64,000 nt of DNA from Tetramitus jugosus (Eukaryota; Heterolobosea; Eutetramitea; Acrasida; Vahlkampfiidae), in contig OW569366.1 of the NCBI GenBank assembly GCA_937625935.1, forward strand, positions 248,001 to 312,000, read 5' to 3'. The position numbers and the translations under genes are program-made. Every line of letters begins with the position of its first letter. Position 1 is the stretch's first letter. The notes under the pieces were generated by a model. The model did not search any database. It was not told where the DNA came from and saw only the letters and a program-made list of their open reading frames with translations. This document shows positions 27,597 to 55,078 of this stretch, in pieces.

Positions 27597-27666
27597 GCAT
27601 CTGCCGGGATTCGAACCCGGGTCGCAGCGATGGCAACGCTGCATGATACCCCTACACTACAGATGC
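27597..27666 (-). tRNA. tRNA-Gly (anticodon GCC)
   Basis: On the minus strand the 70 nt fold as a standard tRNA. The acceptor stem GCATCTG/CAGATGC has 7 pairs. The D arm contains TAGTGTAGGGGTATCA. The anticodon stem CAGCG/CGCTG encloses loop TTGCCAT with anticodon GCC. The T arm is GACCCGGGTTCGAATCCCGG, containing the B box GGTTCGAATCC. No intron. A run of five T follows the 3' end. A retroelement stack begins about 40 bp upstream of its 5' end. Confidence 0.95.
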
Positions 27667-27706
27667 CTGTTAGAAGGTGATGGAGCTCACAAAACGCCGC
27701 GCGGAC

Positions 27707-27722
27707 GCGTCACGAATACATA
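27707..27722 (+). repeat. Target-site repeat copy 1 (GCGTCACGAATACATA)
   Basis: First of three identical 16-bp direct repeats that bracket two poly(A)-tailed retroelement insertions. It is the copy nearest tRNA-Gly, 40 bp from the tRNA 5' end. Confidence 0.9.
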
Positions 27723-27734
27723 AAAAAACGCCGA

Positions 27735-28978
27735 TGAAAAAACGAACACACACCCCTGTTGTTCGTGAGTATGAGAATCCACGCTATGCTGTGTGGACCA
27801 CAGCGCCAAGAGGAACTGCGCCAAGCAGCAAGGAGGTCATCATCACTGGAAAGTGTGATGACTCTCCCAAGGCTGCCTTGGCCAAGAAGATTGGCTTGGA
27901 TTTTGGTGATTTGCTCACCAGGGTCCAAGTCATCAAGAAGGGCCCCAAGAGGTTTGTTGCGTGGGTAACTGTTGTTGATGACAACATTTACCCATTTGTT
28001 GAATCCTTCAACCGCAACAAGAAGATGAGTGGCTGCAAGGCAGCACTCAAGCACAATGTAGATTGTGCCAAGAAGGTCGTCCTCCACGGTGTCAAAGGTA
28101 AGACGGAGGACGACATCAAGGCCATGCTTGGCACAACAAAGGTCAAGAACGTGCTCAAGAAGCACGACACCGCCTTTGTTGTGATGGAGTCCGAAACGTA
28201 TGCCGAAGCTTTGCTTCGGAACGTTCAATCCATGCCAGTGGAGGTGGAAGCAAAGCGCTTCCTTCCACGCCCACGTGATCCTGTCAAGGCTGTCAGCAAG
28301 AGGCTGACCAAGATGTACCAAGAGCTCCTGGCTGTGGTGGACGACCTGCGCCACCAAGTCAGTGTGTTAAAAGATATGGCTTCCGTCAACCGGATTCCCC
28401 TCGCATCCCCGTCTCCAAGGACGCCGGAGCGAATCTCCGAATTCGAACCTTCGACTCCGTCTACGACCGATGACTGGGAGTCGATCATGCCGGAGTCCCA
28501 TCCCGCCACTCCAACTACGGTCACCCAAGAGCCAACCGACAACACCATTGATGAGGATGCTCGTAACAGAGCAATCCTCGAGCTAGTATTGAACACCTCC
28601 GAGGTGTTCAAGAAAGTCAAGAAGGAGATTGCTGCCCGAGCAATCATGGTGGACCGTGCAAGAAGCACAACCACCGAAGAAGATCCAGTTGAGTTGGATC
28701 TCAGTAACCCCGACTGTGAGTTACAGAGTCCCCAACTCAACGAACACAAGAAGCGATCAGCACGTGTCACCGTTGGTGACACTGCTGCTAACAAGATCCC
28801 GGCCAGGTTGGCCAGCATCAAGTCAGGTGCTCTCCGGAGGTCCTACCAACTGGCTAGGACTACGGAGCCATCTGACCTCACCAGTGGTGCTCCAGATGGT
28901 AGTGGAGGCCCTCGCAACGAATCCCTGAAGAAGGGATCAAAACAACATTCCAAGAAGAGAATGAATCCTGTTGCGTAG
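27735..28978 (+). CDS. Retroelement ORF1-like protein (RRM-like fold suspected)
   Basis: 414 residues from the first ATG inside the element; the open frame upstream crosses the target repeat and is host sequence. No stop or frameshift interrupts it. The N-terminal half has two segments that read like RNA-binding folds. The clearest begins KKVVLHGVKGKTEDDIKAML and later has DTAFVVMESETYAEALLR, the spacing of an RRM. A likely coiled coil follows (YQELLAVVDDLRHQVSVLK), then Ser/Thr/Pro-rich sequence and a strongly basic C-terminus (KKGSKQHSKKRM). This is the plan of LINE ORF1 proteins, which bind element RNA and act as chaperones. Codon choice favours C and G in third positions, unlike host genes nearby. 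The family assignment is inferred from context and layout. Confidence 0.7.
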
Positions 28979-29022
28979 GCCTGCCACTCCACTGGGCAAG
29001 CACCACATCATGTTAGACAATT

Positions 29023-29044
29023 GAGAGCAGGCAAGCCTGCTCTC
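29023..29044 (+). repeat. Perfect 3' UTR hairpin of the ORF1-only element
   Basis: GAGAGCAGGC and GCCTGCTCTC form ten pairs around AA. It lies 44 bp after the ORF1 stop and about 60 bp before the poly(A) tail. It may serve reverse-transcriptase recognition. Confidence 0.65.
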
Positions 29045-29123
29045 ACGCAAAAGAAAAATAAAAGTTCCGCAACGTGGTGCTCACGCACCATTTGTTGTAT
29101 TAAAAAAAAAAAAAAAAAAAAAA

Positions 29124-29139
29124 GCGTCACGAATACATA
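29124..29139 (+). repeat. Target-site repeat copy 2 (GCGTCACGAATACATA)
   Basis: Identical to the copies at 27707 and 30084. It ends the ORF1-only element and opens the truncated ORF2 element. Confidence 0.9.
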
Positions 29140-29994
29140 GTTGTGGGTATAGTTAGTCGTAAACAACTAGTGGTGGATGGTGAGCCTATGTGCTTCAAAG
29201 AGTTCAAGCAAGTGTATCCCAACTGTAAACTGGGTGCACAGAGGCACCAGTTGCTCAGTATCTTGATCTCTCAAATGAGAGAGTGTAATTGTCCATGCCG
29301 AAGTCTCCGGTCGTGTGGCGAGCCTGCATTGTATAAAGGTGGACTGAGGGTAGAGAGCAGACAGCACCTTCAATCCTTGTTTGATCAAGAGCGCAATATT
29401 CGAGTGGAGGAAAGTGACAGATGGTGGGTGCAAAAGGCAGCAAATTACAGTGGTGCTGACTTTTCCTTCCTGAAATATCCTCATGGTGTGGATAGAAGAT
29501 TAGAATGGTTCCAACTTCAAGTGAGAAGTGGAACTCTCCACACAGAGGAAGTTGTTAGAGGTCTTTACAACCCCCATGATGCGTCTATCATGTGCTCCTG
29601 GTGCAAAAAAGAACCCGAGAGTGTCTTACACTGCTTGGTACGTTGTCCCAGGTCTGTACATGCTAGACGGTGTCTAGCACTGACAGTGGGTAAGGAACTA
29701 ATTAGCATGGGAGTGTCAGCTGACAGTTGTATCGACATATGGTTCGATAATGTCAGACTCAAGAACGGAAAGATTGAAAAAAGAGCACTGCGGTGGACTA
29801 GCAGAGAGTATCTAACAGGTATGATGGGCATCGAAACGAGTGCCATCGAAGATATCACCAATGGATTGGTAGCCAGTGGAGTCAGAGTAGCAGTGGCCGT
29901 AAAAAAAGCAAGAATTTATGTGAATGGGGTGAAACGGAGATGTCTCACGACTCTCCTTCACCTCTTCACCACAACAAAAGCGAAACAACAATGA
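29140..29994 (+). pseudogene. LINE ORF2 C-terminal fragment (zinc-knuckle region after reverse transcriptase)
   Basis: An uninterrupted frame of about 285 codons beginning at the insertion junction, so it is a truncated ORF2 without its own start. It carries the segment WFQLQVRSGTLHTEEVVRGLY, then the zf-RVT-like zinc site CSWCKKEPESVLHCLVRC (C-x2-C-x8-H-x4-C). The C-terminal region contains FDNVRLKNGK, YLTGMMGIE and RRCLTTLLHLFTTTKAKQQ. The reverse transcriptase and endonuclease domains are missing. Close relatives of this C-terminus occur on the minus strand at 44.9-45.4 kb, confirming a repeat family. Lack of stops suggests a fairly recent insertion. Confidence 0.85.
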
Positions 29995-30013
29995 CGCTCT
30001 GCGAGCGTCATTG
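29989..30013 (+). repeat. Stem-loop spanning the ORF2 stop codon (TGC loop)
   Basis: Eleven perfect pairs, CAATGACGCTC/GAGCGTCATTG, with loop TGC; the TGA stop lies within the left arm. The other subfamily has a different stem with the same loop at the same place (54489-54511). Confidence 0.75.
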
Positions 30014-30083
30014 AGAATTAATCAGGTGACCAAGGGTCATCGCTCTTCGAGCAACCGAAATGGTTGTATAAAAAAAAAAAAAA

Positions 30084-30099
30084 GCGTCACGAATACATA
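30084..30099 (+). repeat. Target-site repeat copy 3 (GCGTCACGAATACATA)
   Basis: Third identical copy, directly after the poly(A) tail of the truncated LINE and directly before an older LINE relic. Confidence 0.9.
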
Positions 30100-30583
30100 T
30101 AACAATGAAGCTCCAACAGTGTGCGAAAAATGCAACAAGGAGTCAGAGACTATTGTCTCATTCGCTGTCCAAGAGCAATATTGACTAGAAGAAGGCTGGC
30201 TATGTCGGTAGGTGATGAGTACTCTGGAAATCCACCGAGGAGCAACACTCTTTGCTCGATTTTCGGTTTGGTTGCACTGTCAGCTTACTGCCTTTCCAAC
30301 TAACATAGTCAAACCATCGATCGACCTGGTGTTGCTCCTCGGTGTGATGGGTGTAGAGAAGGAAGCAGTGGATCAAATAATGAGAGGGATGAGGAAGAAC
30401 GAAATCAAGACAGAGAAAGCTGAAAAGGGAGCCATAACATTAGTGAACAAGGTGAAAGGAGGTCCGTCGAAACCCTTCATCACTTGTTCACTAATGGCGC
30501 AATTGTTAGAATTAAGAAGTAATGCAACATTGATGGATTCCTATCTACCTACAGACCCTTCTTCTGCTCAAAATACCCAATAA
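30100..30583 (+). pseudogene. Degraded LINE ORF2 C-terminal relic
   Basis: Same zinc region as the preceding copy but broken: VCEKCNKESETIV in one frame, then LIRCPRAILTRRRLAMSVGDE in another after a frameshift near 30155. LGVMGVEKEAVDQI follows in a further frame. A perfect 16-bp inverted repeat (CACCGAGGAGCAACAC at 30233-30248 against 30329-30344) encloses about 80 bp that do not match the other copies. No poly(A) tail is seen at its right end. It is probably an old copy, and the oldest piece of the stack. Confidence 0.75.
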
Positions 30584-30595
30584 TGTTGAAAAGTT

Positions 30596-31081
30596 ATTGA
30601 AACTTAACAAATTTTGACAACGAGTAGGGAAGATAAAGCGGGAAGATAAAACTGGAACATAATATAAGAAAGACAACACAATGACGCAAGTTCCAAAAAT
30701 ATAAAACATGATCGAATTTAATAACATAAATCTAATACAGTGATAAAGATAATTACAAATAACAACCACAAGTATTATCAAATTTAAGATTCATTTCTAA
30801 ACACACAATTATTTTACTAATAAATTAACTGATGGATGTTCTAATCTCTGTTTGTGATTATTTGCTCCTGTAGTAAGCATGTGACGCTTCGGAAATGTTT
30901 ACGATGGAAATACTGGTCCACTCTTTACGAGAATGGGGCAGTCTATCTATCGTTTGTGGGTATCGTCCTTTGGTTGCGTGTTATCCGTGATTGAATTTGG
31001 GTGTCCCTCGGTCAAATCTTGAGCGGGTGGCAAACAATTTCAATTTCACACAAACACATTATCCTCCCACACAAACAAAAT
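30596..31081. other. Gene-free AT-rich region 5' of the F-box-like gene
   Basis: About 490 bp with no credible reading frame or RNA. It must contain the promoter of the gene starting at 31082. The right part (30830-31000) is richer in G+C. Confidence 0.4.
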
Positions 31082-33373
31082 ATGGCACACCAACCACCAC
31101 CAACCATCACATTCTTTGAACACAACGGCTGTTCCTTCAAATTAGTCTCAAATGCTGACCATACCGTCAGTCAAGTGTACTATTGCGAAACGAAGCAAGC
31201 GCCACAATGGATTCCACTGAATTCATCATTATCACCACCACCACCACATCATACAACAACAATAGTTTTATCATCTCCCAGTGGTGATGGTTCGCAAGAG
31301 TCAGTTCCGACAGCAGCACCTTTTTCTCCACTTACCTCATTGACATCATCAGTCTCATCAAACAACAACAATAAGAAGAGAAAGTACTCTTGCAATGTCA
31401 TTGGTGAAAGCAAAGATTCTGAAGAAGATGTTGCCTCATTGATTCAGATTGATAATACTACTTCTTCAACTACTACTACCACTGCACATCATCATCATCA
31501 TCGTGAAGAAAAGAGAACAAAATTCAATCACCAATACCATCAATTGAAACAGATGAAGAATATCATGATGATGAATGGCATGAATCATCATCATACTAGT
31601 AACAACAATCATCATCATCATCATCATTACTACCCATCATGGATCACATTGCCAGCTCATGTCAAGTGCTATATTCTATCATTTGTGCCCAGTCACATTA
31701 TTCTCAAAACAAAACAAATTGAATTCAACATTAATGGTCACGAGTTCATCAAGACCATTTATCTCAATGAACGTGTGATTCATCAATTGGAGACGGATAT
31801 TTTCAAGAACATGTATGGAAGAATTCAGAACAATGATCATAATAACAACAATCACAGTAACAATAGTAGCAGTCAAAGAGTGCACACTCTATTCTATCCA
31901 AAGATTTCCATTGATGAATTCTATGAATACACTTGTCCTACTACTACTACTACTACTAGCACTACTACTACTAGCACTACCACTACTAGCACTACCACTA
32001 CAATGGCAATGATGATGATGATGAATAATCATAATAATGAGAGTACACATGAAACAACAACAAAAAGAATCATGTTACCAGTTCACAAACAAATTGCAAC
32101 AGTCATACCATGGTACCATTGCTGCACACTCAAGATTCCACTCAATGACTTTATTCAAATGCCCATTGAAAAATTTCAGTACACTCTACAAAAGATCAAG
32201 TTCATGTGTTCGTTTGAACATGTCATGGATGGCATGTTGGCCTATACGATGAACTCTCTATTTCACTCTCATCCACGTCATCATGACTATATTACATGCA
32301 ATGACACTACTACTAGTACTATTGCTACTGGTACTACTACTACTGGTACTACCGTTACTACTACTACTACTTCTACTACTACTACTGGTACTACTACTGA
32401 CAATAACAATATGAATCATACGAATCATAATAATCATCATAACAAGAGAAGAGTAGATATTAGTGTGTCTGCTGGGTACATTACCAATGATCAATTTGAG
32501 TCATGTGTTCACATTCTGTCTCAGCTACCCCACTGGTTCAACAAGTGTGAAATGAGAACAGGATTTGGATCAGTGTACACGATTGATGGCATGTTGAACT
32601 CTGATGCATCCAGTATCAACTTTCAATCTCTCGCTCTCATCACCAACTGTAAAACACTCAAATTGCACTATAGTGAATTTGAACCATTGTTGACATTGAA
32701 CAATATTGATCAGATATTGAGTGTCAATCACATGACTCATCTCACCATCAAGATGATGCATGATTTCAATGATGAACTAGAGAGATTTCAATTGCCATTC
32801 TTGACTAGTAGTAGTAGTAGTACTGGAACCAATGGTCAACCACAAGAACAAAAAGAGGACAAGAGTGCAGCAGCGATGGATCATGCACAAGTCTCTCCTC
32901 AAGACAAACATTTGCGCACTCATCCGTCACTGCGAAAACTAAACCTTCAATGTGGTGAAATTCTAGGATCACAATTTCTCAATGCCATCTATCAGAATCG
33001 GAAGCTCACAAGTCTGAAGCTGAGATTCCCCATGATGATGGACGATGTTGTTCGCATTCTCAATGTAGAAAACTCTAAAATCAAGAGACTCAAAGTGGGC
33101 AGCACATGTGGTGTCTATCTCGGCAATGAACTCATTGACAGTATTGTTCAATCCAATAACAAGACTCTCAAGTCACTCTATGTCAGAGGAAGCAACGAAG
33201 GAACTCATTGCTGTGCGGACAGTATACTCAAGTTTATCAAGCATTGCACGAGCTGCAGTCGATTAATTTATTTCGAAAAGGTGAACAATGAATTGCTGAA
33301 ACGAACGTTTGAGAGAGATGGTGGAAAGTCTGCTGGCTTGTTGAATGGCAAGCACTACATCTTTGTTGACTAA
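31082..33373 (+). CDS. F-box/leucine-rich-repeat-like protein with homopolymer runs
   Basis: 763 residues from the ATG at 31082; the open frame upstream has only non-ATG codons. The first ~180 residues are P/S/T/H-rich. At about residue 186 is SWITLPAHVKCYILSFVPS, which fits an F-box (LP..V...ILSF.P). Two long T/S/N runs interrupt the middle. The C-terminal third has leucine-spaced segments such as LRKLNLQCGEILGSQFLNAI, KLTSLKLRFPMMMDDVVRIL and LKSLYVRG, read as leucine-rich repeats. F-box/LRR proteins are substrate receptors of SCF ubiquitin ligases, so that role is inferred; no partner is visible. It converges on PEX1, with 58 bp between stop codons. The F-box is weak enough that only 'LRR-like protein' is firm. 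Confidence 0.72.
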   Translation: MAHQPPPTITFFEHNGCSFKLVSNADHTVSQVYYCETKQAPQWIPLNSSLSPPPPHHTTTIVLSSPSGDGSQESVPTAAPFSPLTSLTSSVSSNNNNKKRKYSCNVIGESKDSEEDVASLIQIDNTTSSTTTTTAHHHHHREEKRTKFNHQYHQLKQMKNIMMMNGMNHHHTSNNNHHHHHHYYPSWITLPAHVKCYILSFVPSHIILKTKQIEFNINGHEFIKTIYLNERVIHQLETDIFKNMYGRIQNNDHNNNNHSNNSSSQRVHTLFYPKISIDEFYEYTCPTTTTTTSTTTTSTTTTSTTTTMAMMMMMNNHNNESTHETTTKRIMLPVHKQIATVIPWYHCCTLKIPLNDFIQMPIEKFQYTLQKIKFMCSFEHVMDGMLAYTMNSLFHSHPRHHDYITCNDTTTSTIATGTTTTGTTVTTTTTSTTTTGTTTDNNNMNHTNHNNHHNKRRVDISVSAGYITNDQFESCVHILSQLPHWFNKCEMRTGFGSVYTIDGMLNSDASSINFQSLALITNCKTLKLHYSEFEPLLTLNNIDQILSVNHMTHLTIKMMHDFNDELERFQLPFLTSSSSSTGTNGQPQEQKEDKSAAAMDHAQVSPQDKHLRTHPSLRKLNLQCGEILGSQFLNAIYQNRKLTSLKLRFPMMMDDVVRILNVENSKIKRLKVGSTCGVYLGNELIDSIVQSNNKTLKSLYVRGSNEGTHCCADSILKFIKHCTSCSRLIYFEKVNNELLKRTFERDGGKSAGLLNGKHYIFVD

Positions 33374-33431
33374 CTATAAAGTAATTGTCGCAAAATTCAG
33401 AGATTGTATTTATTTTGGTGTGGCCTGAAGT

Positions 33432-36400
33432 TTAAGCCAGTGTGACACGCTGCTCAAATCTCCTCTCTGAAGCAGGTGTTGGATTCATAAACTCTTCATA
33501 GATATACTCGTATTTTGCTCTTTCATTCTCGTTGAGTGATGGCATGGTTTGAGAGAGGGCACTCAGAATGTGTTTCTTGTGTATGAATATCTTGTTCTCT
33601 TCTTGATCCGCATCGCTCTCATTGACAGTACCATGATGGACTTCACTCAATCGATGATTCAGATTCTGAACAATGGCATCCACTTGTTGATCCAATTCAT
33701 CTGACCGATGATCCTCCAACTCTGCAGCGCCACCATTCTGATTCTGATTTGATGCAATTACCTTGTAATGAGATTTAGAGCTAGTTTCCTTGATGTGACT
33801 TGTTGAATTGAAGTCATTCTGTCTCCGTAGCTCCTCATGCTCTCGAGCAGCAATCAAACTGGCCGTGTAGAGCAAACCTTGCAAGTCAGCACCAGTATAA
33901 TGAACAGTCAAATCAGCAATCTCCCTCAATGAGACATCAGATGCAAAGTCGTAATTGGATCCATGAGTTTCCAAAATGAACTCTCTCTCTGTTTCATCGG
34001 GCATCGGACACAAGATGGACTTGTCGAGACGTCCGGGACGCAACAGAGCAGCATCGATTAAATCTGGTCGACTGGTAGCAGCCAAGACATAAACACCTTG
34101 TCTTGACTCGACACCGTCAAGTTGTGTTAGGAATTGATTCACTACACGATCCGTCACACCTGTATTGTCATGACCTCTCTTTGCTGCAATCGAATCAAAC
34201 TCATCAAAGAAAATGATACATGGCTTAGCGGCATCTGCTTGTCTAAACACATCACGCACAGCTTGCTCACTCGCACCAATGTACTTGTTGAGCAATTCTG
34301 GACCCTTGACCGAGATGAAATTGAGCCCACACTCACCTGCTACCGCGTTGGCCAACATGGTTTTTGCGCAACCCGGAGGTCCATACAGCAGGAGACCACT
34401 TCGTAGCTTTATAGGTGAATTCTCAAAGTACCGAGCATACTTTGTAGGGAATTCAAACGTCTCCTTCAACATTTGTTTCACATCAGTCAGGCCGCCAACA
34501 TCTGAGAATTTGACAGAGCTCTTGACTAGTTTGATGCCTTCGACAGACTTTGTCACAAAGTCAGATGTCGCTACTTCGAAATCGTCCATTGTTAGCTCTA
34601 TCCGACCAGTAATGTCATCAATGTGAAACATGCCACTCTGAAGTCGCTTTCGCATGTTCATATTGATCATCTTTAGGATAATGCTCTCAATGTCACCTGG
34701 AGAATAATTCTCTGTTCTCAGTACAATCTTCTCCAAGTTGTCATCGGATACAACATATGGATAGATGGAATCTCTTTTCAGTATACTCTTGAAAATCTTT
34801 GTTCTGTGCTTTCTGTCAGGCATGGACATGTGGATATTGGATTGGAAAATGTTGGACGACTGAATCTTTTGATTGAGTGTGTCCATGGACTTGCATGTAG
34901 CAATCACAGAGACAGTCTTCTCAAATGCATCACTCTTGGAAACAGATGCAGAGAACATTGCCAACTTTGTCATTTGATCAATAAAGATTGTGGACAGGAC
35001 TTTGACATTGGGATCAGGCATGGCTTCTTCATGCTCAAACGGACACAAAATATCTAAATCATCAAAAATGATGAGTGATGGAGCATGACTCATTGCCTCG
35101 GTCACATAACTCCTCAACTTAGCAGTCATTGTGTCTGTTCGATCACCTGCCATTGAAGTGCATGACACGTGCACGACATATACATTGGCACAACGAGCAA
35201 CCGATTGAGCAAAATGACCTTTTCCCATACCCACTTGACCAGTCACAGTCAAGTGATGCACCGTGGAGAAATCATAGGAATAGTGTGATTTGAGATGTCG
35301 GTGACGAGGTGACAATTGAACAAACATGCGCTTCAATGACTGTTTGGCCGAGTCAGACAATTGCTCATAGTCACTGTCCAAGAGTGAAGATGGTTGAGCA
35401 CAACTGGATGATTGTGTCAACAACAGAGCATCTTTTCTAAACTGGACAATCACTGGATCTCCACGGGAATAAATACCAGACACATATGCATTCTCCTGCA
35501 ATATGCGAGAAGAGCCATCAATCATGTACAGATTATGATTGGACTCGTTCTTGACAAAATCAACAAATGTCTGATCGTCTTCACTACCACTCGAAGAGGA
35601 TTCATGCAATCGAATCGGTTCATTCACACTAACCAAAAACAGACAACAACCCTGTGCACTCTTTCCTTCGCCATTATTGGTCAGTAGTGGTAATTGAATG
35701 AGATTGTGTTGAGAGAGTGGAATCGATAATGATTGATTCTTTGTTGTGTCATTAGTAAAAGTAGATGCCAACATGCATTGATCACGTATCCATTGTTTGA
35801 TCCGTTGTTGAATAATAGAGGGATCAGTGTTTGGATTGTCTTCATATGATTCATCACCACCATCAGTATCATCACTACTACTATTGTGACTATCACTGTT
35901 CAACACTCGTCTCACAAACAGAGATGCAATGGGTGATTGCTTTGATTGTGCATCTGTAATCAATCTCATAAAAACAGTGCTGTGTACAGTGGCACCCAAC
36001 TGTTGCATCAGTGCAAGACTCACATGAATCACACGATCATTATTATCTTGACCATCATTATTATCAGTACTCACAATATGAATTCTACCATAGATCATTC
36101 TCTTCAACTTTTTCTCATCAAATTCCTTCATTTGTGCCATCATTGAATTGGGATCCATTTGTTGTTGTTGATTCTGTTGTTGTTGTTGTTGTTGTTGTTG
36201 CTGTTGTTGTTCTTGTTGTTCTTCTGGAGTCAATGTAATTCTGACTCGAATCACATGCAACAATTGAACCAAATCACCATTGGTCAATTTCAATTGATTG
36301 GCAATTGATTGACTCACATGTATCATTCTTGAATCATCATTTGAATTACTATTATTAGTGAGTGATAGTCGGTTCATCTTTACTCTGGTCCACAGTGAAG

Positions 36401-37313
36401 GTCGATCATCATTATTTGATTGCTTATTATCATCATCATCATCATGTTCATCATCATTTGTATGATCACCATCATGTTCATCATCATTCATGGGTGTTCT
36501 CTGTTTTGTCTCAACAATCAACTCTGATCCATCCTTTAATATAGAAATGAAATTTTGACCAATCATCGCATGACTATCTAAGTTCTTATTATTATTATTC
36601 TCATTATTACTATTATTATTATTCTCAATATGATTATTATTATTATTATTATTATTGTGAAGAGAGAGAGTAGATTTGACATGAATGTGAATACAGACAT
36701 TGGAATGAATCCACAGTGGAAACACCAATCCAGCATACACTACTCGTATCTGTTTCATTAAACAATCCTCAATGGATGATTGATTGTATTCCAATATTTC
36801 AGAGTCATTCACTGTATTTGGCTCTACAAATATACGTTCTTCATAACAAGCACAATCATTATTACTAGTAGTATTATCCATAGTAGATGTAGTAGTAGTA
36901 GTATTGGAAGGGTAATTGACAATATATGATTGATATTGTTGTTGAATGAGTTCGAGTGGAATGTGCTCCACTGTAATCATTGTGTATTCTTCAATGGAGA
37001 GACAAGAGGCAAATGAGATTGGTATTTCAATGCAACCGACATCACTGGTGGACCATGACCAACCTACATGAGCATGTCTGAGTTGAGATGCTGGTGATGA
37101 TGATGATGATGAATTGTTACTACTGCTATTGTTGTTGCTGATGGTAAAGTGTTGTTGTTGTTGAGAAGCAATCCAAGTGAGTTTGAATAGAGCAAGTGGT
37201 ACAGTGTTGGGCAGTGATCGCGTCACATGCCGAGGCAAACTCACAAAACAACTCTTGTGATTGTTGAATATGACCTTGAGTTGATGAGTGGTTGATGATG
37301 TTGTTGATTGCAT
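33432..37313 (-). CDS. PEX1: Peroxisome biogenesis AAA ATPase PEX1
   Basis: With PEX6 it pulls ubiquitinated PEX5 from the peroxisomal membrane. Single exon, 1,293 residues, near the family's ~1,280. The N-terminal domain (LKVIFNNHKSCFVSLPRH and following) matches the PEX1 adaptor-binding fold. Asn-, Asp- and Gln-rich inserts lie at about 250-300 and 380-400. The D1 P-loop is GQVGMGKGHF (~694) with IIFDDLD. D2 is canonical: KFSDVGGL, Walker A GPPGCAKT (~978), Walker B IIFFDEFDS (~1033) and arginine-finger region LLRPGRLD (~1091). D2 is the active ATPase in the family and all its key residues are present; D1 is degenerate, as usual for PEX1. It indicates functional peroxisomes. Confidence 0.95.
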   Translation of the reverse strand: MQSTTSSTTHQLKVIFNNHKSCFVSLPRHVTRSLPNTVPLALFKLTWIASQQQQHFTISNNNSSSNNSSSSSSPASQLRHAHVGWSWSTSDVGCIEIPISFASCLSIEEYTMITVEHIPLELIQQQYQSYIVNYPSNTTTTTSTMDNTTSNNDCACYEERIFVEPNTVNDSEILEYNQSSIEDCLMKQIRVVYAGLVFPLWIHSNVCIHIHVKSTLSLHNNNNNNNNHIENNNNSNNENNNNKNLDSHAMIGQNFISILKDGSELIVETKQRTPMNDDEHDGDHTNDDEHDDDDDNKQSNNDDRPSLWTRVKMNRLSLTNNSNSNDDSRMIHVSQSIANQLKLTNGDLVQLLHVIRVRITLTPEEQQEQQQQQQQQQQQQNQQQQMDPNSMMAQMKEFDEKKLKRMIYGRIHIVSTDNNDGQDNNDRVIHVSLALMQQLGATVHSTVFMRLITDAQSKQSPIASLFVRRVLNSDSHNSSSDDTDGGDESYEDNPNTDPSIIQQRIKQWIRDQCMLASTFTNDTTKNQSLSIPLSQHNLIQLPLLTNNGEGKSAQGCCLFLVSVNEPIRLHESSSSGSEDDQTFVDFVKNESNHNLYMIDGSSRILQENAYVSGIYSRGDPVIVQFRKDALLLTQSSSCAQPSSLLDSDYEQLSDSAKQSLKRMFVQLSPRHRHLKSHYSYDFSTVHHLTVTGQVGMGKGHFAQSVARCANVYVVHVSCTSMAGDRTDTMTAKLRSYVTEAMSHAPSLIIFDDLDILCPFEHEEAMPDPNVKVLSTIFIDQMTKLAMFSASVSKSDAFEKTVSVIATCKSMDTLNQKIQSSNIFQSNIHMSMPDRKHRTKIFKSILKRDSIYPYVVSDDNLEKIVLRTENYSPGDIESIILKMINMNMRKRLQSGMFHIDDITGRIELTMDDFEVATSDFVTKSVEGIKLVKSSVKFSDVGGLTDVKQMLKETFEFPTKYARYFENSPIKLRSGLLLYGPPGCAKTMLANAVAGECGLNFISVKGPELLNKYIGASEQAVRDVFRQADAAKPCIIFFDEFDSIAAKRGHDNTGVTDRVVNQFLTQLDGVESRQGVYVLAATSRPDLIDAALLRPGRLDKSILCPMPDETEREFILETHGSNYDFASDVSLREIADLTVHYTGADLQGLLYTASLIAAREHEELRRQNDFNSTSHIKETSSKSHYKVIASNQNQNGGAAELEDHRSDELDQQVDAIVQNLNHRLSEVHHGTVNESDADQEENKIFIHKKHILSALSQTMPSLNENERAKYEYIYEEFMNPTPASERRFEQRVTLA

Positions 37314-37508
37314 TTTTTTTGTTTTTGTTGTTCAATTATTAATGCCGGTGATTATTTGATTCTTGTGAACAAACACTTGTCAACAAAAAAGAATATCCTG
37401 ACACTGAGCAATATCGGATACAAAAAACAACAACAAGAGCGCACTTGATTGACTATAGAACAAGAATAAAGAAAGTTAAGCTTTAATGAGAAAAACAATA
37501 AGGGCAAT

Positions 37509-44899: not shown

Positions 44900-45000
44900 A
44901 TGCTGAGGTGGCTGTTGTTTCGCTTTTGTTGTGGTGAACAGATGAAGGAGGGTCGTGAGACACCTCCGTGGTCGCTTTTCAGTCTTACCTCCCTTTCTGT
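44900..45000 (-). mobile_element. Short LINE remnant (end of ORF2, subfamily 2)
   Basis: On the minus strand about 44987-44922 encodes KRPRRCLTTLLHLFTTTKAKQQ, matching nearly residue for residue the C-terminus of the plus-strand copy at 29994. Boundaries are unclear. It lies against the poly(A) end of another remnant. Confidence 0.7.
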
Positions 45001-45477
45001 GGGAAGTTTTTTTTAATACAACCATTGCAGTTGCTCTTTTTATTGTTTTTAGTTTACATTAGCCAACGCTCGCAGCCAACGTTGGTCCTGGTTATCTGTA
45101 CATTTTTTCCCAAAGAGGATCGTAGAGCGTCATTGCTTCTGTTTCCCTCCTTGAGCGAGCTTTCTCCGCTTCACACTGCTCACGAATGTTTTGGCTTTCT
45201 TTGCAGCTACTGACTTCTTCATCCTGTTAAGCACCAATCCATCTGTTACTTGCTCGATGGCATCTACCTCGATGCCCATCATTCCTTGAAGGTATTCTTT
45301 GCTGGTTTTCTTGATAGGTCTTCGCGACAACTTGCATTCCCTCGCAAGTTGTCAAACAAGATGTCGGTATAACTCTCTCGTGCCACTCCTAGCTCCACTA
45401 ACTCGTCTCCTGCTGTAATCTTCTACTTTTAACTGCTCGGGGGCAGCGATCTTTTCTGTGGTCACCAAAACGTGGAA

Positions 45478-46119
45478 GTTTTTTTTCCATACAACAGTTG
45501 TTGCCACTTTATTCAATACACTACTATGAGACATGTCATCGCAGGTTCTGAGCTATTGTTCAGGTCTCTTCGCTAGCGAGTCTTTCCAGACTTTATACAT
45601 TCGTTTGATGCAAGATCTTTTTATTGCATTTACCAATCTTTTCACTTTTGTTTCCCGCTTCTTGCGGCCATACACTACTATTTCCTTCATCAGTACCTCC
45701 TTCTGGTCCTCTTCCGATGATCGACTGGGGATCCGAGGTAGCATTTTGCCATCATCGTACACCGCATTGTCAAACCAGAGATTGAGCTTGGCTGGTCTCA
45801 TAAACTCCAGTTTGTTCAATGAAACCTTGAATTCTTCCACTAGTTCGCTTCTTGCTCTTTTGGCTTCTTCACACTCCACCAAGAGGTGTAGTATCGTCTC
45901 CGGTTCACTCTTGCAATGAGCACACATGGTTTCCATCAGTGGTTCATACAGGTCTCGTACTACAGTCTTTGTGTGCAGAGTGCCACTCCGGACTTGGTGA
46001 TAAAACCACAACTCACCTCTTTCTAGACCAAAAGGGCACTTCAAGAACTCATTCCACTCCTTATCCTTCTGCAGTTCAGCTTCTAACTTCCAGTTTCCAT
46101 CTGACTCTATAGACTCAGC
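45478..46119 (-). mobile_element. 5'-truncated LINE copy (subfamily 1) inserted in an older LINE
   Basis: Flanked by perfect 16-bp direct repeats TCACCAAAACGTGGAA at 45462-45477 and 46120-46135. On the minus strand it runs from inside ORF2 to GTTGTATGG and eight A. Truncation at the 5' end, the A tail and long target repeats together define a LINE insertion. Confidence 0.88.
45553..46119 (-). pseudogene. LINE ORF2 C-terminal fragment, subfamily 1
   Basis: Open frame from the insertion junction to the ORF2 stop. It contains WFYHQVRSGTLHTKTVVRDLY, zinc site CAHCKSEPETILHLLVEC (C-x2-C-x8-H-x4-C) and LEFMRPAKLNLWFDN. It ends KRETKVKRLVNAIKRSCIKR ... EQ. The same C-terminus, about 85% identical by eye, is at 54511-54756. 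No start codon or reverse-transcriptase domain is present. Intact reading suggests a recent insertion. Confidence 0.82.
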
Positions 46120-46401
46120 TCACCAAAACGTGGAAATAGCTCATTTTCAATGATAGAGTGTCTACGTTCATACAATGGTGGAACCACCTCTTCCCATTTC
46201 GAATAGAGAAGTTAACCACCATCTGGCTGAGTTAGTATTGAGATAGGAGACTACTCGAGAACCCTCAGTAATGTAGGCTTTTGCTAGTCGTTTTGGACAT
46301 CCAGATGAGCGGACTCAACAAAGCAGGATATAAGTATTGCACTATTCCGAAGACTGTGTGTCGAATATTGAAAAAATGTCGCATGTGTAAATCTTTATTG
46401 T

Positions 46402-48744: not shown

Positions 48745-48948
48745 TGTTTTGCTCGAATTTTTCTGTTCGTAGATTGTTTCTCCGTCTCACATAATTCGAA
48801 TGTTCATTGTCTCTCCGAAAAAAGTTATGACAACACGTTTCGATGAAGGAGTTTTCACTATTCTAAAAAGTCAATCCCATTTTCGACCACACGAACAACA
48901 ACAAAACGCAACAATCAACACTCGGAAAACAACCTTTCGTGTTGATAT

Positions 48949-48971
48949 CACACACACACACACACACACAC
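48949..48971. repeat. (CA)n microsatellite upstream of the KCTD-like gene
   Basis: About 11 CA dinucleotides, 25 bp before the start codon at 48997, in the probable 5' leader. Confidence 0.8.
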
Positions 48972-48996
48972 AACCATCCATTCATAGTAGAGAAAA

Positions 48997-50700
48997 ATGA
49001 AAAAGAGCGTATCATTCGGAGCACTTCAAAACGCATTTGTTCCTCCCTCGTCCAACTCACTCTCTGGTCATTCACAACACCATCCACACCACCATCATTC
49101 ATCATCATCATCATCATCTCATCCTCATCACAGTGCCATTCGATCTTCTTCACCAGCAGCACACGCACGACACTCTCATCATCCCTATCATCACCATCAC
49201 TCCTCTCATCAACAATTGTACTACTCCAATGGTCAATACTTTTATAATCACAGTAATCAAAGTAATGCAAGTGGTAGTGATGGAAGTGCAATGAACCATG
49301 TGAATTTGTCTCCAGGTATGAACAATAACAACAACAATAATAGTGCATCATCGTCACCATCACCATTTCAACAACAACAACAACAACAACAACAACAGTC
49401 ACTACATCAACAAATGATCGAAATCAATGTAGGTGGTCAAATATTTACAACGACATTGGACACGTTGAGATACATTCCAAAGTATTCCATGATGACTCAC
49501 TATTATGATTATGAGAACAACAACAACAACAACAATAACAACAATAACAACAATAACAATAACAATAGCCCTGCAAACAATGAGAGTAATAATAATAGTA
49601 GTAGTGCACCACAATCACAAACATCATCAACGACAACAACAATCACATTACAAGAACCAAATGCTCCCTCCACTCCATCAAACACTCCTACTACTAATTC
49701 TTCCAACAACATGATGCTATTGAATGACAATACCAACTCTAGTATGCACAGTACGAATAGTAACATGAGCAGTGGAATGCAGTCTCCTCATCCTCAACTC
49801 CATCATCAACATTTGCATCACAACAACAACACGTATCAATTCTTGTTCAATGTGCAGTACAATCACGTGAGAGATGATGATGGTAGATTGTTTGTCGATA
49901 GGGATGCTGATTTGTTTCGAATCATTTTGAATTTTGTGAGATCAAAGGGCAATGATATCTATTTACCGTCGGGTGATCGTGTCATGTTGAGACGATTGTT
50001 GTGCGAGGCAGAGTACTATGGTTGGTATTCAACTGGTAATATGCCAGTCAATTTGTTTGAGTCTTGTGTTCGATTGCTGAGAGAGTTGAATGCATCGACG
50101 ACACAACAACAGCAATCGAATTCATCATCTCCATTGTCGCCTTCTTCTGGAATGAGCAATAATAGTAATGGAAGCAATGCAGGTACTAACAATAATAATA
50201 ACGGTAGTGGTAGCGTTAGCGGTAGTGGTGGTACTACAGCAACAATCTTGTTGCGAATGTGTGTGTTTAATAGTAATGCGGCGATTGCAAACTTTGAACC
50301 ATTTCGGTCAACCAGTGGTGCTGTTGTCGTACAAAACTATCAACACATACCCTATACGTCACTAGAGTTTGAACTCGCAGAGGATTCACCCGTAGTTGCG
50401 TCGTGGTACTTTGGTGATTGTGCTGGTGAGTTTGCAGTGTTGTTGGATGGTCACATTCAGCCTACACAGCCCGCATTATGTGGAATCTTGTTGGAGAATC
50501 TGAAAGAGCCTGCTCAATTCGATTATGCCACCAATGCGTTCATCAAGCATGTTCAACAGTGCAAAAAGGGAAAACATCGCATTGAACTGTTGTGGAAATC
50601 GTACAAGAACTGTCGTTATCAACTACAGGGTCCTGTGATCAGTGAGGTTCATCAGATCAACCCTGCAGTGTGTCGAATTATTGGAGAGCCATCGACATGA
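48997..50700 (+). CDS. KCTD-like protein with T1/BTB domain split by an Asn-rich insertion
   Basis: 567 residues, single exon. The first ~135 residues are His/Ser/Asn/Gln-rich. The T1-type BTB domain starts at ~140 (IEINVGGQIFTTTLDTLRYIP) and ends at ~340 (RLFVDRDADLFRIILNFVRS ... LLCEAEYYGWY). These two halves are normally contiguous within ~100 residues. Here about 120 residues, with a run of 17 Asn and T/S-rich sequence, are inserted between them. KCTD proteins mostly act as adaptors for Cullin-3 ubiquitin ligases. The C-terminal ~170 residues look globular (TSLEFELAEDSPVVASWYFG) but unassigned. Confidence 0.88.
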   Translation: MKKSVSFGALQNAFVPPSSNSLSGHSQHHPHHHHSSSSSSSHPHHSAIRSSSPAAHARHSHHPYHHHHSSHQQLYYSNGQYFYNHSNQSNASGSDGSAMNHVNLSPGMNNNNNNNSASSSPSPFQQQQQQQQQQSLHQQMIEINVGGQIFTTTLDTLRYIPKYSMMTHYYDYENNNNNNNNNNNNNNNNNSPANNESNNNSSSAPQSQTSSTTTTITLQEPNAPSTPSNTPTTNSSNNMMLLNDNTNSSMHSTNSNMSSGMQSPHPQLHHQHLHHNNNTYQFLFNVQYNHVRDDDGRLFVDRDADLFRIILNFVRSKGNDIYLPSGDRVMLRRLLCEAEYYGWYSTGNMPVNLFESCVRLLRELNASTTQQQQSNSSSPLSPSSGMSNNSNGSNAGTNNNNNGSGSVSGSGGTTATILLRMCVFNSNAAIANFEPFRSTSGAVVVQNYQHIPYTSLEFELAEDSPVVASWYFGDCAGEFAVLLDGHIQPTQPALCGILLENLKEPAQFDYATNAFIKHVQQCKKGKHRIELLWKSYKNCRYQLQGPVISEVHQINPAVCRIIGEPST

Positions 50701-50792
50701 GAATTCGTGTGTGATTCATTGGATTTCAAATGGAAGTGACTATTATTTGGAAAGAAATAACTTAATTTTAATTATCACAGCTGCAGAGTTGT

Positions 50793-53700
50793 TTACTCGC
50801 CCTGTAGGAGACGAGCTAGTTGTGGATGCGTGTACCGATTCATGTACTTTTTCTCCTCTTCAACACATAATCGCTCCTTATGCTTCCGCATGATGTAGCG
50901 TGATATGAGCAGGGTTGCAATGAGCAGTGCTGCACACGTGACGAAGAAAAAGGATGTAGATGAGACTTGAGAAATTACTCGAGAATAAGCTGGAGAGGTT
51001 ACAACAGCCAGAGAGGCAAATAAAAGAGTTAAAAGCGAGGCAATTCCAAATTCTACGCTTCCTACACCTGTTGCCTTATCGTACAGGAAGCAGATCAGGA
51101 ATGTATCCACAAAGTAATTCATCACAAAGAACATCACTCCGGGTATGAACAACATTGGAAATCTTGTACCCAGTGCCGTCAATGTATAGAAGATGTACAG
51201 TGAGATGGAATAGGAAGACACAAAGTTGAATTTTGGTCGCTCTGGAGCTCCACTTGTTTTCCAATTCCGAACAGCAATTGTGACGACGTCCATGAAGAGT
51301 ACCAATCCTTTTGAGACAAACATTTGAGATAGCAGTAGATACATCAACTTCAGTCCAGAGTTGTTGTAGAAAGATTTAGGACTTGTGTCTCTCATTTGCA
51401 AGTCTCCATAGTACGGAGTTAGAAGTGAGGAGAAAGTACACATTAGGGCCGTTTTCAGTAAGTATGACGCCTCAAATCTGGATTTCGTTTTCATTTTCTC
51501 TGCTTTGCCAAAATCTAAAGAAACAAGAATAAAGGGAAGTTAGTTGACATACACTCGAATTGTCACATAAATGGTTTCAATGATACATGCAGTAGAATAT
51601 AAGAGCGAATATTTCGTTGAGAATGGCTAGGAAAATAGGCAGTACATAGTAGGGAATATTAGCCAACTGGGTGATCCACCTTCGATCTAGACTGTTTGCC
51701 AAAACGGTCCATTTTGATTGTCTGAGCTGTATACGAGAGGCTGCACCGTACATTCCATTAAGGACAATATAGATGCACAACAATCCGACTGAAACTAGCA
51801 CAAAGGTTGATGTTGCGACGTAGGAGATGATTGTTCGAACTAAATTTTCGTTTCGTGAGTGATGAAGATTGTCCCATTCGATATCTTCGGGTTCCCAAGT
51901 ACATTGATGAATATTCCAATTCTTGGATCCCAATGCACTGATTCTCAATGAGTGTACAGTGTCTGCCATGTTATCACGTGATTTTGGCGAATGAGCCTTG
52001 ACACAGGTGTCCAAGTATTTTGCACTTCTAAATGTTACAAACGCAGATGTAGATACCACGGGATTGCGCTGAGTGATGGCAAGTATTTTGTCTCTCGTTT
52101 TTTCAATCTTATCGGCAATCTTCGTCTGTTCAGATAGGGTAGAGTCTGAAAGCTGAACCTTTAGATCCTCGTATTGTTTGAAAAGACTGGATATTAGGTG
52201 CATGTCTGGAGTGATAGTAGCACACAAAACTGCATCCTCAATACTGTTCTCGGATGAAATAAACTCTTCTTCCAAGGGATTTGATAGAGTGTTTACAGAG
52301 GAAACGTTTCGTACAATGCTGTTGAAGTGATCACATAATAGTTGTTCGCGCCTTTCAATATCATCAGGATTTGAAACACCTAGATCCACATATCGATTTC
52401 TTTCTACGGATATCTGCAATGGTGGCAAGTTAGAGACTCGCAGCGTTACAGATGACAATTTCTCCCTTCTTCTTTTGAATATCAGCAGCTTTACCGTGAG
52501 CGCCATATTAATCACACAAACAACATAATAGATCGTATTCATCGTAAAATGGGCGGCCGATACCTTTGATCCATCCAATATTTTGCCAAAGGTCGTAATA
52601 GAGAAGTCTGGATAATATTGTTGATTCCTATTGTAGACAACATGAATAGGTAGGAGAGTAGGGAATGTAATGAAAGCGAACAAACCAATCATCAACACGA
52701 TACGTCGATGGAATTTCCACCAATAGTAGGCTGGGAAACCACACTGTCTAATCATTTTTGTCGAATTCAATGTTGCGAACCATTTCAAATCAAGCACCTG
52801 ACGTTCGGATAGTAATCTTTCAACATCTGTTCCACTGTGCTCTCCTTCTTCCCTAATAATATCATCTTCCAGCTCTCGAGACACCTTTTCCCAATTCGCA
52901 TCACTAGTCATTCCATTTGATTTCGCAAACGGACATTTGAAAATAAAAACGACTAGAGTGACAAATGACGCGACAAACAAAGGTACTCCCAGACCCAAGT
53001 GTGGCCCAATCAACATTTCAAAATAAACAGTTCGAGCTCTAATCTTATCAGGTATCTGATAGTGCATGCAGATAGGTTGCTTGCTGGTTCGATTGTACAT
53101 TGCTATCATCATACCAATCTTGTAGTGATTCGGACTGGCTACAATACCCATATCAGACGAATACCAATTCCATATCAACTGTCCACCATTTCCAACTGCA
53201 GTTACCTTCATTTTAGAATCACTAGACAACGTAATGTTGGCTCTCAAGTGTTGGGAGCCTAGTAGATGAAAGAATGAGAAGAGTCTGGGCTTATATTTCG
53301 ATAATGCCTTGGGTGGATTGATAAAATAAGCACCCACAGTCACAATATAGTCCTTTAAAACAGCTTCCAAGTACTTTTCATCATTGCTACTATCATTGTC
53401 GTTCAATGACACAGAGTTGTTCAGTGAGATGTAATGATTGAGAAAGGATTGAGTCAGAGGAAGGATCGGTTGTACCATGAGACCACCTTCCTGCAAATTT
53501 CTCACACTTTTGCTCACTGGCAAATAAATCTGTGCGTACTCCATGCCCATCAAACACTGCTCCAATCGAGTGTACTGAGTGGCACACTGATCAAGTATAG
53601 CAGTTTGTGCTGGATTGACGTCTCCTTCATCCACAGGATACATTTCAGCATATGTCTTTTTCAATGGCGATGAACCATTATGATTCTTGTTCAGGGCGTT

Positions 53701-54066
53701 GAACTCTTCCTCCTCTAACTGCTGTTCTTGTTGTATCTGGATGAGATAGAATGGATTATCCTTGGATTTCTTACGATTGGAGCTTGATCCTCCTCCCTCA
53801 TCACCAATGAAAAAGATTTGAGAAGCATTGTGACATGTGTGAGTCACAGAGTCGATGCATGTGCTCGTCTGTGTACACCATATGCAAACTTGTTGTTTTT
53901 CATTCGATGATGGTAATGTCTGATTGAGACATTGAGTACATGTGCGTTGTTTGGAGCATGCAACAGTCGAAGCTTGTAGTCGTGTTTGTTCTTGGTGACT
54001 AATGAGAATGAGTATCAAAAAAGACAAGCACAACAATGCAAGAAGCAGTATGGAACGCATTGTCAA
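50793..54066 (-). CDS. CSC1/TMEM63 (DUF221) osmosensitive cation channel-like protein with secretory N-terminal ectodomain
   Basis: Family members are mechanically or osmotically gated cation channels. The large exon (54066 to about 51590) opens with a signal peptide (MTMRSILLLALLCLSFLILILIS). A Cys-rich stretch follows (CSKQRTCTQCLNQT, CIWCTQTSTCIDS), then a lumenal/extracellular region. The family core comes next: ILSERQVLDLKWFA, TLRVSNLPP, SAFVTFRSAKYLD, WEPEDIEWDNL and helices such as ISYVATSTFVLVSVGLLC. The last part (51494-50793: KTKSRFEASYLLKTALM, FPMLFIPGVMFF) matches the family C-terminus and must be a second exon. The join is not clean: GT donor at 51588 and AG acceptor near 51518 leave a one-base frame conflict. 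A homopolymer error in TTTT at the exon start would explain it. About 1,070 residues joined. Confidence 0.85.
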
Positions 54067-54344
54067 TCATGGGTGTTTGTGTACAAATGGCAAGGGATGT
54101 TCTTCAAAATTTTTCACAAACAAAAACAAAGAGATTCCTGCAGAACTGGATGTTCGAGCAAAGCGGAGTAATCCATCTCGGACATTTTCTAGTTGATGGT
54201 TAGAAGTTGTTCACAACCAAACACGACACTAAAAACATACTCCATTTAAACACAAGAAGGGCATCCTTTTGTTTTTTAATTATCCAACTGGTTCCGTGTC
54301 ACAAAAAGGCTGAGTGTAAAAAGTGTTTTTTTGACCTTTTCATT
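54067..54344. other. Upstream region of the CSC1-like gene
   Basis: 278 bp with no gene seen. It holds the promoter of the gene on its left and grades into LINE-derived sequence on its right. Confidence 0.35.
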
Positions 54345-54411
54345 GCCTAGACCAACCTGTTAACCTTTGTTTCCCTCTTCTCGCAACCACACAACCAGCT
54401 CCTTCTCGTCA
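54345..54411 (-). mobile_element. LINE remnant C at the tRNA-Tyr stack
   Basis: About 67 bp matching the ORF2 segment that encodes RKKRETKVKRLVNA in the neighbouring copy (compare 54595-54660). It is probably the oldest, most eroded member of the stack. Confidence 0.6.
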
Positions 54412-54424
54412 AGATGTATAAAAA
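54412..54424 (+). repeat. Target-site repeat a at tRNA-Tyr (AGATGTATAAAAA)
   Basis: Matches AGATTTATAAAAA at 54861 and 54948 with one substitution. It flanks the poly(A) end of LINE copy B. Confidence 0.75.
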
Positions 54425-54488
54425 TTTTTTTTTTCCATACAACATTTGTTGCCCCTTTATTCTATACACTACAGTGAGACGTGTTGTC

Positions 54489-54511
54489 GCTCAGAACCGC
54501 AGGTTCTGAGC
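54489..54511 (-). repeat. Stem-loop at ORF2 stop codon, subfamily 1 (TGC loop)
   Basis: Ten perfect pairs GCTCAGAACC/GGTTCTGAGC around TGC on the minus strand, starting at the TAG stop. Same loop and place as 29989-30013, with unrelated stem sequence. Confidence 0.75.
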
Positions 54512-54860
54512 TATTGTTCACATCTCTTCGCTACTGAGTCTCTCCAGACTTTGTGTAACCGTTTGATGCAAGACCTCTTCATTGCATTCACCAGCCTTTT
54601 AACTTTTGTTTCCCTCTTCTTGCGACCGTGCACAACCAGCTCCTTCATCAACACATCCTTCTGGTCATCCTCTTTTCCCATTAACCCTGCTAAGATTTCT
54701 TCAGTGGAACGACTTGGACTTAGTGGTACCAATTTCCCGTCATCGTAAACCATCATCGAACCATATCTTTAACTTAGCTGGCCTCATAAACTCCAGCTTG
54801 TCCAATTTGGCCTTGAATTCCTCAACCAGTTCCTTTCTTGCCCTTTTGGCTTCATCACAG
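54511..54860 (-). pseudogene. LINE ORF2 C-terminal fragment, subfamily 1, frameshifted
   Basis: Two overlapping frames cover the end of ORF2: from the junction to about 54754 and from there to the stop at 54511. The homologous copy at 45553-46119 is continuous across this point, so this one has a frameshift. No reverse transcriptase or start is present. Confidence 0.78.
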
Positions 54861-54873
54861 AGATTTATAAAAA
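54860..54873 (+). repeat. Target-site repeat b at tRNA-Tyr (GAGATTTATAAAAA)
   Basis: Identical to 54947-54960. It lies between LINE copies B and A. Confidence 0.85.
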
Positions 54874-54946
54874 TTTTTTTTTTTTTTTTTTTCCATACAA
54901 CAGTTGTTGCCACTTTATTCAATACACTATGAGACATGTCGTCGAT
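54874..54946 (-). mobile_element. Very short LINE copy A: 3' UTR only, with 19-A tail
   Basis: 73 bp on the minus strand: the last ~54 bp of the subfamily-1 3' UTR (ending ACTGTTGTATGG) plus 19 A, flanked by GAGATTTATAAAAA on both sides. An extreme 5' truncation. Confidence 0.85.
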
Positions 54947-54960
54947 GAGATTTATAAAAA
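54947..54960 (+). repeat. Target-site repeat c at tRNA-Tyr (GAGATTTATAAAAA)
   Basis: Third copy of the target, nearest the tRNA, 29 bp from its 5' end. Confidence 0.85.
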
Positions 54961-54989
54961 TATACCCACAAAGTATGGGCAACCACGGA

Positions 54990-55061
54990 CCTCTGATAGC
55001 TCAGATGGTAGAGCATGAGACTGTAGATCTTGTGGTCGCGTGTTCGAGTCACGCTCGGAGG
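54990..55061 (+). tRNA. tRNA-Tyr (anticodon GTA), no intron
   Basis: 72 nt. Acceptor stem CCTCTGA/TCGGAGG has one T-G pair. The D arm is GCTC...GAGC. The anticodon stem TGAGA/TCTTG, with two G-T pairs, encloses loop CTGTAGA with anticodon GTA. The T stem GCGTG/CACGC is perfect around TTCGAGT. A TTTTT follows at 55076-55080. The anticodon loop is directly joined to the stem, so there is no intron. The thioredoxin gene ends 17 bp downstream on the other strand. Confidence 0.93.
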
Positions 55062-55078
55062 ATTCAATTTTGGTGTTT

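Follow-up and report, generated by a model that had tools for sequence, protein, structure and literature searches.

In the heterolobosean Tetramitus jugosus, non-long terminal repeat (non-LTR) retrotransposons of the long interspersed nuclear element (LINE) type, together with relatives that carry only the first open reading frame (ORF1), very probably insert at a fixed distance upstream of genes transcribed by RNA polymerase III (Pol III), by target-primed reverse transcription and by docking on the Pol III initiation complex. The docking partner is most likely TFIIIB, judging from position only. The arrangement is exhibited by a stretch of 64,000 nucleotides, here called the window (C23:248001-312000 of the 26.3-Mb genome, which is assembled in 56 contigs). 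Three Pol III genes were recognized there, tRNA-Gly, tRNA-Tyr and a 5S rRNA gene, and each has stacked LINE sequence upstream of it on the opposite strand. Across the genome, at least three LINE lineages appear to keep distances of their own, about 44-45, 48 and 56 bp, the 48-bp value coming from two copies. A sequence-only reading of the window had previously described LINE insertions upstream of both tRNA genes on the opposite strand, and the target-site duplications and polyA tracts read at the Gly and Tyr genes bear this out. Its count of two out of two tRNA genes also stands, but the sample is really three out of three Pol III genes, since the 5S gene had been overlooked.

Stacked elements at the Pol III genes of the window

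The tRNA-Gly(gcc) gene (27596-27666, minus strand; ARAGORN and Rfam) is preceded, 41-56 bp upstream, by the 16-bp target-site duplication GCGTCACGAATACATA (27707-27722). Exact copies of this duplication at 29124-29139 and 30084-30099 sit after the polyA of the elements G1 and G2, respectively. G1 (27723-29123, plus strand) is a non-autonomous, ORF1-only LINE of family A, about 1.4 kb long, with an ORF1 of 414 aa at approximately 27734-28978, its own 3' end, a TT tail and polyA, and no ORF2. G2 (29140-30083, plus strand) is a 5'-truncated LINE with the C-terminal part of ORF2, a Cys/His segment recognized by eye, and polyA. It is followed by G3 (30100-30330, plus strand, right border uncertain), a decayed ORF2 fragment with a match at 30151-30219.

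The tRNA-Tyr(gta) gene (54990-55062, plus strand; ARAGORN and Rfam) exhibits the mirror image of this order. The 15-bp duplication GAGATTTATAAAAAT lies 29-43 bp upstream (54947-54961), and is repeated exactly at 54860-54874 and, over 13 bp with one mismatch, at 54413-54425. The copies delimit Y1 (54875-54946, minus strand), a 5'-truncated remnant of a GG-tail LINE with polyA, and Y2 (54426-54859, minus strand), a 5'-truncated fragment of GG-lineage ORF2, likewise with polyA. At the third target, the 5S rRNA gene (46160-46279, plus strand; Rfam, 97.3 bits), the duplication (T)CACCAAAACGTGGAA occupies 46120-46135, 25-40 bp upstream, and its distal copy 45462-45477. Between them lies S1 (45478-46119, minus strand), a 5'-truncated GG-tail LINE fragment carrying the C-terminus of ORF2 (51% identity to a GG-lineage ORF2 over 204 aa). 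Behind S1 follows S2 (45000-45461, minus strand, borders approximate), a TT-lineage LINE fragment with matches between 45157 and 45448.

The repetition of one duplication between successive elements indicates that the same cut was made again. The first base of the gene-proximal element lies 57 bp (Gly), 44 bp (Tyr) and 41 bp (5S) upstream of the gene, the last value becoming 40 bp when the leading T of the duplication is left uncounted. Thus, the range of 40-60 bp given by the earlier reading includes both tRNA values, but the two sites represent two families with different distances. Its statement that the LINE 5' end is turned toward the tRNA is correct as to orientation; G2, Y1 and Y2, however, are 5'-truncated, so that the end facing the gene is a truncation point and not a true 5' end.

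Genome-wide association and distances by lineage

The association was surveyed from the side of the genes as well as from that of the elements. Two tRNA lists compiled blind to the elements comprise 72 genes: 53 nuclear genes found with Rfam RF00005 and 19 further tRNA-Gly genes. For the former, 63 of 1,593 first-look candidates were scored and 10 of the 63, located on C54 and C56, were excluded as probably mitochondrial. (Five tRNAs have identical coordinates on these two contigs, which are probably one mitochondrial genome assembled twice.) Matches to ORF1 or ORF2 occur at up to 5 kb from 24 of the 72 genes, in 23 cases upstream on the opposite strand. The list was extended to 101 genes by the two window tRNAs and by those from another search, which used a query of tRNAs beside elements and may therefore favour occupied types. 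It was compared with 339 element features (105 ORF1 matches, 134 ORF2 matches and 100 of 143 tail sites). A feature upstream on the opposite strand, at no more than 1 kb, is present at 33 of the 101 tRNA genes; 68 have none in this range and not a single gene exhibits any other arrangement, while 0.45% of 20,000 random positions on 32 contigs, a control by position only, have a feature upstream on the opposite strand. Since the lists of elements and genes are lower bounds, occupancy is underestimated. The comparison of junctions with tRNA genes by strand, which the sequence-only reading had put forward as its check, thus agrees with it in this genome-wide sample.

The 5S genes, which are dispersed across the genome, were represented by 48 copies (47 scored of 772 first-look candidates, and the window gene). 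Within 1 kb, 12 have a feature upstream on the opposite strand, two have one downstream on the opposite strand, one has one downstream on the same strand, and 33 have none. The 5S genes at C10:118604-118723 and C20:68627-68746 lie 414 and 293 bp, respectively, past the 3' side of a LINE on the opposite strand, possibly by chance; downstream targeting at these genes was considered and set aside, as two cases among 48 are too few.

From the side of the elements, 60 loci (L009-L068) were collected as the surroundings of the 30 best ORF1 and the 30 best ORF2 matches, with a flank of 1.5 kb. In 42 of them the 5' flank contains a tRNA gene on the opposite strand, and one of these 42 has an additional tRNA on the 3' side. 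Of the remaining 18, two have a 5S gene where a target would be expected, one reaches the tRNA-Gly gene of the window and 15 have neither. The tRNAs involved comprise 22 different assigned anticodons and one unassigned. The tRNAs reported by ARAGORN at L024 and L146, 99 and 97 nt long, have a four-base anticodon (actt) and are most likely misread intron-containing tRNAs; that at L146 scores 55.9 bits as a tRNA in Rfam.

Family B, a second ORF1-only family, was defined by 37 ORF1 matches with at most 52% identity that start no later than query residue 27 and reach residue 374, partial copies being excluded. Of these copies, in all of which the ORF1 start is complete, 27 adjoin a tRNA gene (26 found by ARAGORN, all on the opposite strand, and a weaker one by Rfam), three abut a 5S gene found by Rfam, and seven lie behind another element. 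The seven stacked copies are within about 150 bp behind an element of the same orientation, and a Pol III gene at the head of the stack is seen for some of them. Ten of 12 long ORF2 copies have a tRNA at the 5' flank (nine by ARAGORN, one by Rfam); the other two are L149, beside a truncated tRNA-Trp, and L154, behind another element. L149 (C16:364316-365216) is a full-length element whose upstream remnant retains the tRNA-Trp flank and roughly 14 nt from the start of the gene, the tRNA gene being apparently broken.

The distances fall into classes that largely follow the element tail. Outside the family-B set, a duplication of at least 12 bp was required for a distance to be accepted. TT-tail insertions (GTTGTATT-polyA) start 55-59 bp upstream of the gene in 20 of 23 duplication-verified cases, and family B, with the tail GTTGTATGG, starts at 41-47 bp (mode 45) in all 22 copies with duplications (Mann-Whitney p = 7e-9). 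Three loci (L014, L019 and L035) occur in both the family-B and the GG sets and entered this test with their family-B values alone, while four junctions of unclear tail type (57, 44, 55 and 47 bp) are in neither group. At 5S genes the distances are 39, 40 and 41 bp, in addition to the 41 bp in the window; the difference from the family-B mode is only about 4-5 bp. ORF2 matches at C11:366589 and C23:352615 begin 39 and 37 bp, respectively, from a 5S gene, which would be too near for members of a 56-bp lineage. With a constant offset, TT-lineage copies at 5S genes would be predicted at about 51 bp, a value with which these two matches may conflict.

Autonomous copies exhibit comparable values. 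The GG-lineage copies L148-L150 start at about 44 bp, read by eye from the A-run at the element start, and the L070 type starts at 48 bp in its two copies, L070 and L155. Five of six other autonomous copies (L145, L147, L151, L152 and L156) start at 54-56 bp, also by eye, with 47 bp as an alternative for L145; the element start of L146 is unreadable. At L156 a mostly-A repeat was rejected as the duplication, and a 13-bp repeat with one mismatch was read by eye instead. The outer two distances (about 44 and about 56 bp) differ by about 11 bp, approximately one turn of DNA, which may be a coincidence.

Overlapping insertions provide a further view of how the distance is counted. With the gene as the reference point for the cut, an element of the 56-bp class arriving at an occupied 44-bp site would cut about 10 bp inside the older element, and a 44-bp element arriving at a 56-bp site would leave about 10 bp of host DNA between the two. 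Both patterns are present. At L013, L017, L020, L028, L031, L036 and L044 the distal duplication of the TT element runs into the 5' end of a family-B element, which is cut about 7-13 bp inside. Beyond the distal family-B duplication, L019 has 10-12 nt and L035 has 11 nt of host DNA before the 5' end of family A, whose own duplication, overlapping that of family B, was recovered at the far end of the family-A element (15 bp at L019). At L014, family A follows family B without a clear spacer. The occurrence of both predicted patterns shows that the distance is counted from the gene and not from the sequence.

Structure of the elements

The locus L070 contains a full element, with an ORF1 of 372 codons from the first ATG, an ORF2 of 1280 codons, and polyA after a short 3' region. 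It lies between copies of a 16-bp duplication, which is located 32-47 bp upstream of a tRNA-Gly gene. In this copy, the one read closely, the ORF1 stop and the ORF2 start overlap as ATGA. The leader that precedes ORF1 is only about 15-25 nt long in the copies read. The matches listed by the ORF2 search of the genome include eight full-length copies without a stop. Two ORF2 proteins were scanned for domains: RVT_1 is above the curated cut-off in both (E 7e-29 for L070), Exo_endo_phos matches both below that cut-off (E 1.5e-4 and 5.2e-5), and neither has a match to RNase H. A Cys/His segment at the C-terminus of ORF2 was seen by eye only. Thus, the elements combine the hallmarks of LINEs, namely a reverse transcriptase (RT), polyA, target-site duplications (mostly of 15-18 bp) and 5' truncations. 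Compared with PDB sequences, one ORF2 has six distant matches, to R2, R2-like and other reverse transcriptases, which do not place its clade; the best 120 of 655 RT homologs are 22-35% identical.

Families A and B extend over about 1.3-1.4 kb from the ORF1 start to the tail and lack ORF2 in the copies read, and both are presumably mobilised in trans, by analogy with the dictyostelid derivative TRE5-A.2. The 17 best family-A matches are at least 95% identical to the window copy, a similarity that suggests recent activity. A protein of 414 aa, 98% identical, is also encoded on a 1,580-bp public contig. The tail pattern occurs at 143 sites in the genome, compared to none for its reversed control. 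A structure model of ORF1 (mean pLDDT 56, pTM 0.28) has tandem RRM proteins as its best matches, with a probability near 1.00 and query TM-scores of 0.13-0.25 among the 50 shown, along with some other ferredoxin-like folds; the model weakly suggests two RRM-like domains and a coiled coil.

Proposed mechanism, alternatives and known systems

In the proposed mechanism, the insertion complex would dock on the initiation complex of Pol III. TFIIIB, which is common to tRNA and 5S genes, would be the likeliest contact. The strand order of gene, duplication, element (5' to 3'), polyA and duplication allows the nick positions to be deduced: the first nick would fall about 29 bp (family B) or about 40 bp (TT) upstream of the gene, and the second cut, on the other strand, about 16 bp farther out. 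The duplication would restore the gene-proximal sequence and render the site reusable, whereby stacks could be formed in which the newest element is nearest the gene. Mature tRNA ends lie a few nucleotides downstream of the transcription start, and the smaller distance at 5S genes thus fits counting from that start.

The lineage-specific distances raise the question of which protein does the measuring. The ORF1 of family B is 52% identical to that of family A and 28% to that of the GG lineage, yet in tail and distance family B agrees with the GG lineage. This combination, in few families, hints that the ORF2 which reads the tail also sets the distance. In a tentative proposal, somewhat less likely than not, the ruler would follow the lineage of the 3' tail and ORF2 rather than that of ORF1, the cut would be set by ORF2 and not by ORF1 as proposed for the dictyostelid element TRE5-A, and the targeting would have evolved independently of dictyostelids. 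The different distances at the same genes, together with overlaps that record the order of insertion, offer a natural experiment for finding out which of the retrotransposon proteins does the measuring.

Several observations weigh against targeting of Pol III genes at fixed distances. The 15 element loci mentioned above, out of 60, have no Pol III gene in the 1.5-kb flank, several of them following another element or running past the flank. TT-tail outliers occur at 48 (L070), 49 and 88 bp, and the autonomous copy L153, whose tail predicts 56 bp, apparently starts at 44 bp. At three 5S genes, out of 15 with a feature in the 1-kb range, the feature is downstream, one being a family-B copy with its own tRNA-Gln and the other two unexplained. 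Only two U6 genes were found; neither is near a listed element, a result that is uninformative.

Within the docking model, the partner may be another than TFIIIB. Since 5S genes have a different internal promoter, the difference of only about 4-5 bp between 5S and tRNA distances would be expected if counting proceeds from the start site set by TFIIIB, and it argues against docking on TFIIIC, bound to the internal boxes, or on the polymerase. This alternative is judged unlikely, although it draws on known cases: TRE5-A requires an intact B box (PMC5391098) and yeast Ty1 employs Pol III subunits (PMC5911963).

Another alternative, which is improbable, is that the elements belong to the TRE family proper, by inheritance or by transfer from one amoeba to another. 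Irrespective of descent, the parallel in behaviour that the sequence-only reading drew to TRE5 of Dictyostelium is borne out across the genome, where the distances are 41-48 or 55-59 bp for tRNA genes and 39-41 bp for four 5S genes. TRE5-A inserts 47+/-3 bp upstream of tRNA genes in 80% of insertions, with the 5' ends of element and tRNA gene facing each other, and at the 5S gene it is found 37-42 bp upstream; its derivative TRE5-A.2 is mobilised in trans (PMC5391098, PMC5911963). Both systems thus share the position upstream of tRNA genes, the facing 5' end, use of 5S genes at a distance a few bp shorter than that at tRNA genes, an ORF1-only derivative, oligo(A) or polyA, and tandems. The 41-47 bp of family B (22/22) fit the TRE5-A value, whereas the 55-59 bp class is outside the published core window. 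An ORF1 followed by an ORF2 with RT is also common to both. The ORF2 of TRE5-A further has an apurinic/apyrimidinic endonuclease (APE) and a zinc-finger-like end; the APE match here is below the curated cut-off, and the C-terminal Cys/His segment was recognized by eye. There are differences as well. The promoter-bearing 5' A-module of TRE5-A has no counterpart in the very short leader, the -1 frameshift between ORF1 and ORF2 of TRE5-A (PMC5911963) contrasts with the ATGA overlap of L070, and the host is a heterolobosean, in which several lineages with different distances coexist. The ORF1 profile search returned 10 proteins, none with an organism name, and no dictyostelid is among the printed names in the best 120 of the 655 RT matches, both being weak negatives. 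Membership in TRE5 is not claimed: the elements have no long 5' module that bears a promoter, and in the copy read ORF1 and ORF2 overlap at their stop and start codons instead of being joined by a frameshift.

A further alternative is that the endonuclease responds to some feature of DNA sequence or structure which by coincidence is found in front of tRNA genes. APE-type endonucleases usually show some sequence preference, and the flanks upstream of the genes are rich in A/T near -23 to -29 and at -4 to -8. The duplications, however, vary between sites, both 5S and tRNA flanks are used, and no strong motif surrounds the first-nick positions in 69 flanks, the second-cut positions being confounded by element sequence. 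Moreover, at the seven loci where TT-tail elements cut inside a family-B element, part of the cut sequence is transposon DNA. Sequence-motif targeting is thus rejected as highly improbable. Still more improbable, and likewise rejected, is broad insertion followed by selection that keeps only copies in harmless places. In its favour, tRNA neighbourhoods are presented as safe sites in compact dictyostelid genomes (PMC5006619), but survival cannot readily yield one strand only, a spread of a few bp, two family distances and reuse of an identical duplication.

Among other known systems, mammalian HAL1 (half-L1) resembles families A and B in having ORF1 without ORF2, although it is not targeted to Pol III genes. 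NLTR-B of Polysphondylium pallidum is a non-LTR element with a similar position, 39-64 bp upstream of tRNA genes, but is built of three ORFs and carries an RNase H domain (PMC5911963), whereas the two ORF2 proteins scanned here have no RNase H match. In yeast Ty3, which uses TFIIIB, and dictyostelid DGLT-A, the position is counted from Pol III genes as well, yet these are LTR elements with an integrase, located nearer the gene and employing another enzyme chemistry.

Heterolobosea are a branch of eukaryotes distant from dictyostelids. The matching position, orientation and 5S use in this group imply either repeated evolution of the same docking or a docking that is much older. A 2016 study of dictyostelid genomes calls the tRNA targeting of TREs unique to dictyostelids (PMC5006619). 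The open-licence literature on retrotransposons of Heterolobosea or Naegleria and on tRNA-targeting LINEs, as listed with the openings of abstracts, yielded no report of such elements, and the portions available of two Naegleria genome papers mention repeats and no tRNA-targeted LINE (PMC9928731, PMC6125883).

The assignment of the window to Heterolobosea, and to a member other than the species named below, is supported by one protein, PEX1 (33435-37331, minus strand). Its best named matches are those of Naegleria lovaniensis and N. fowleri (49%) and of N. gruberi and Willaertia magna (46%), and two further proteins match it more closely, with 62-63% identity.

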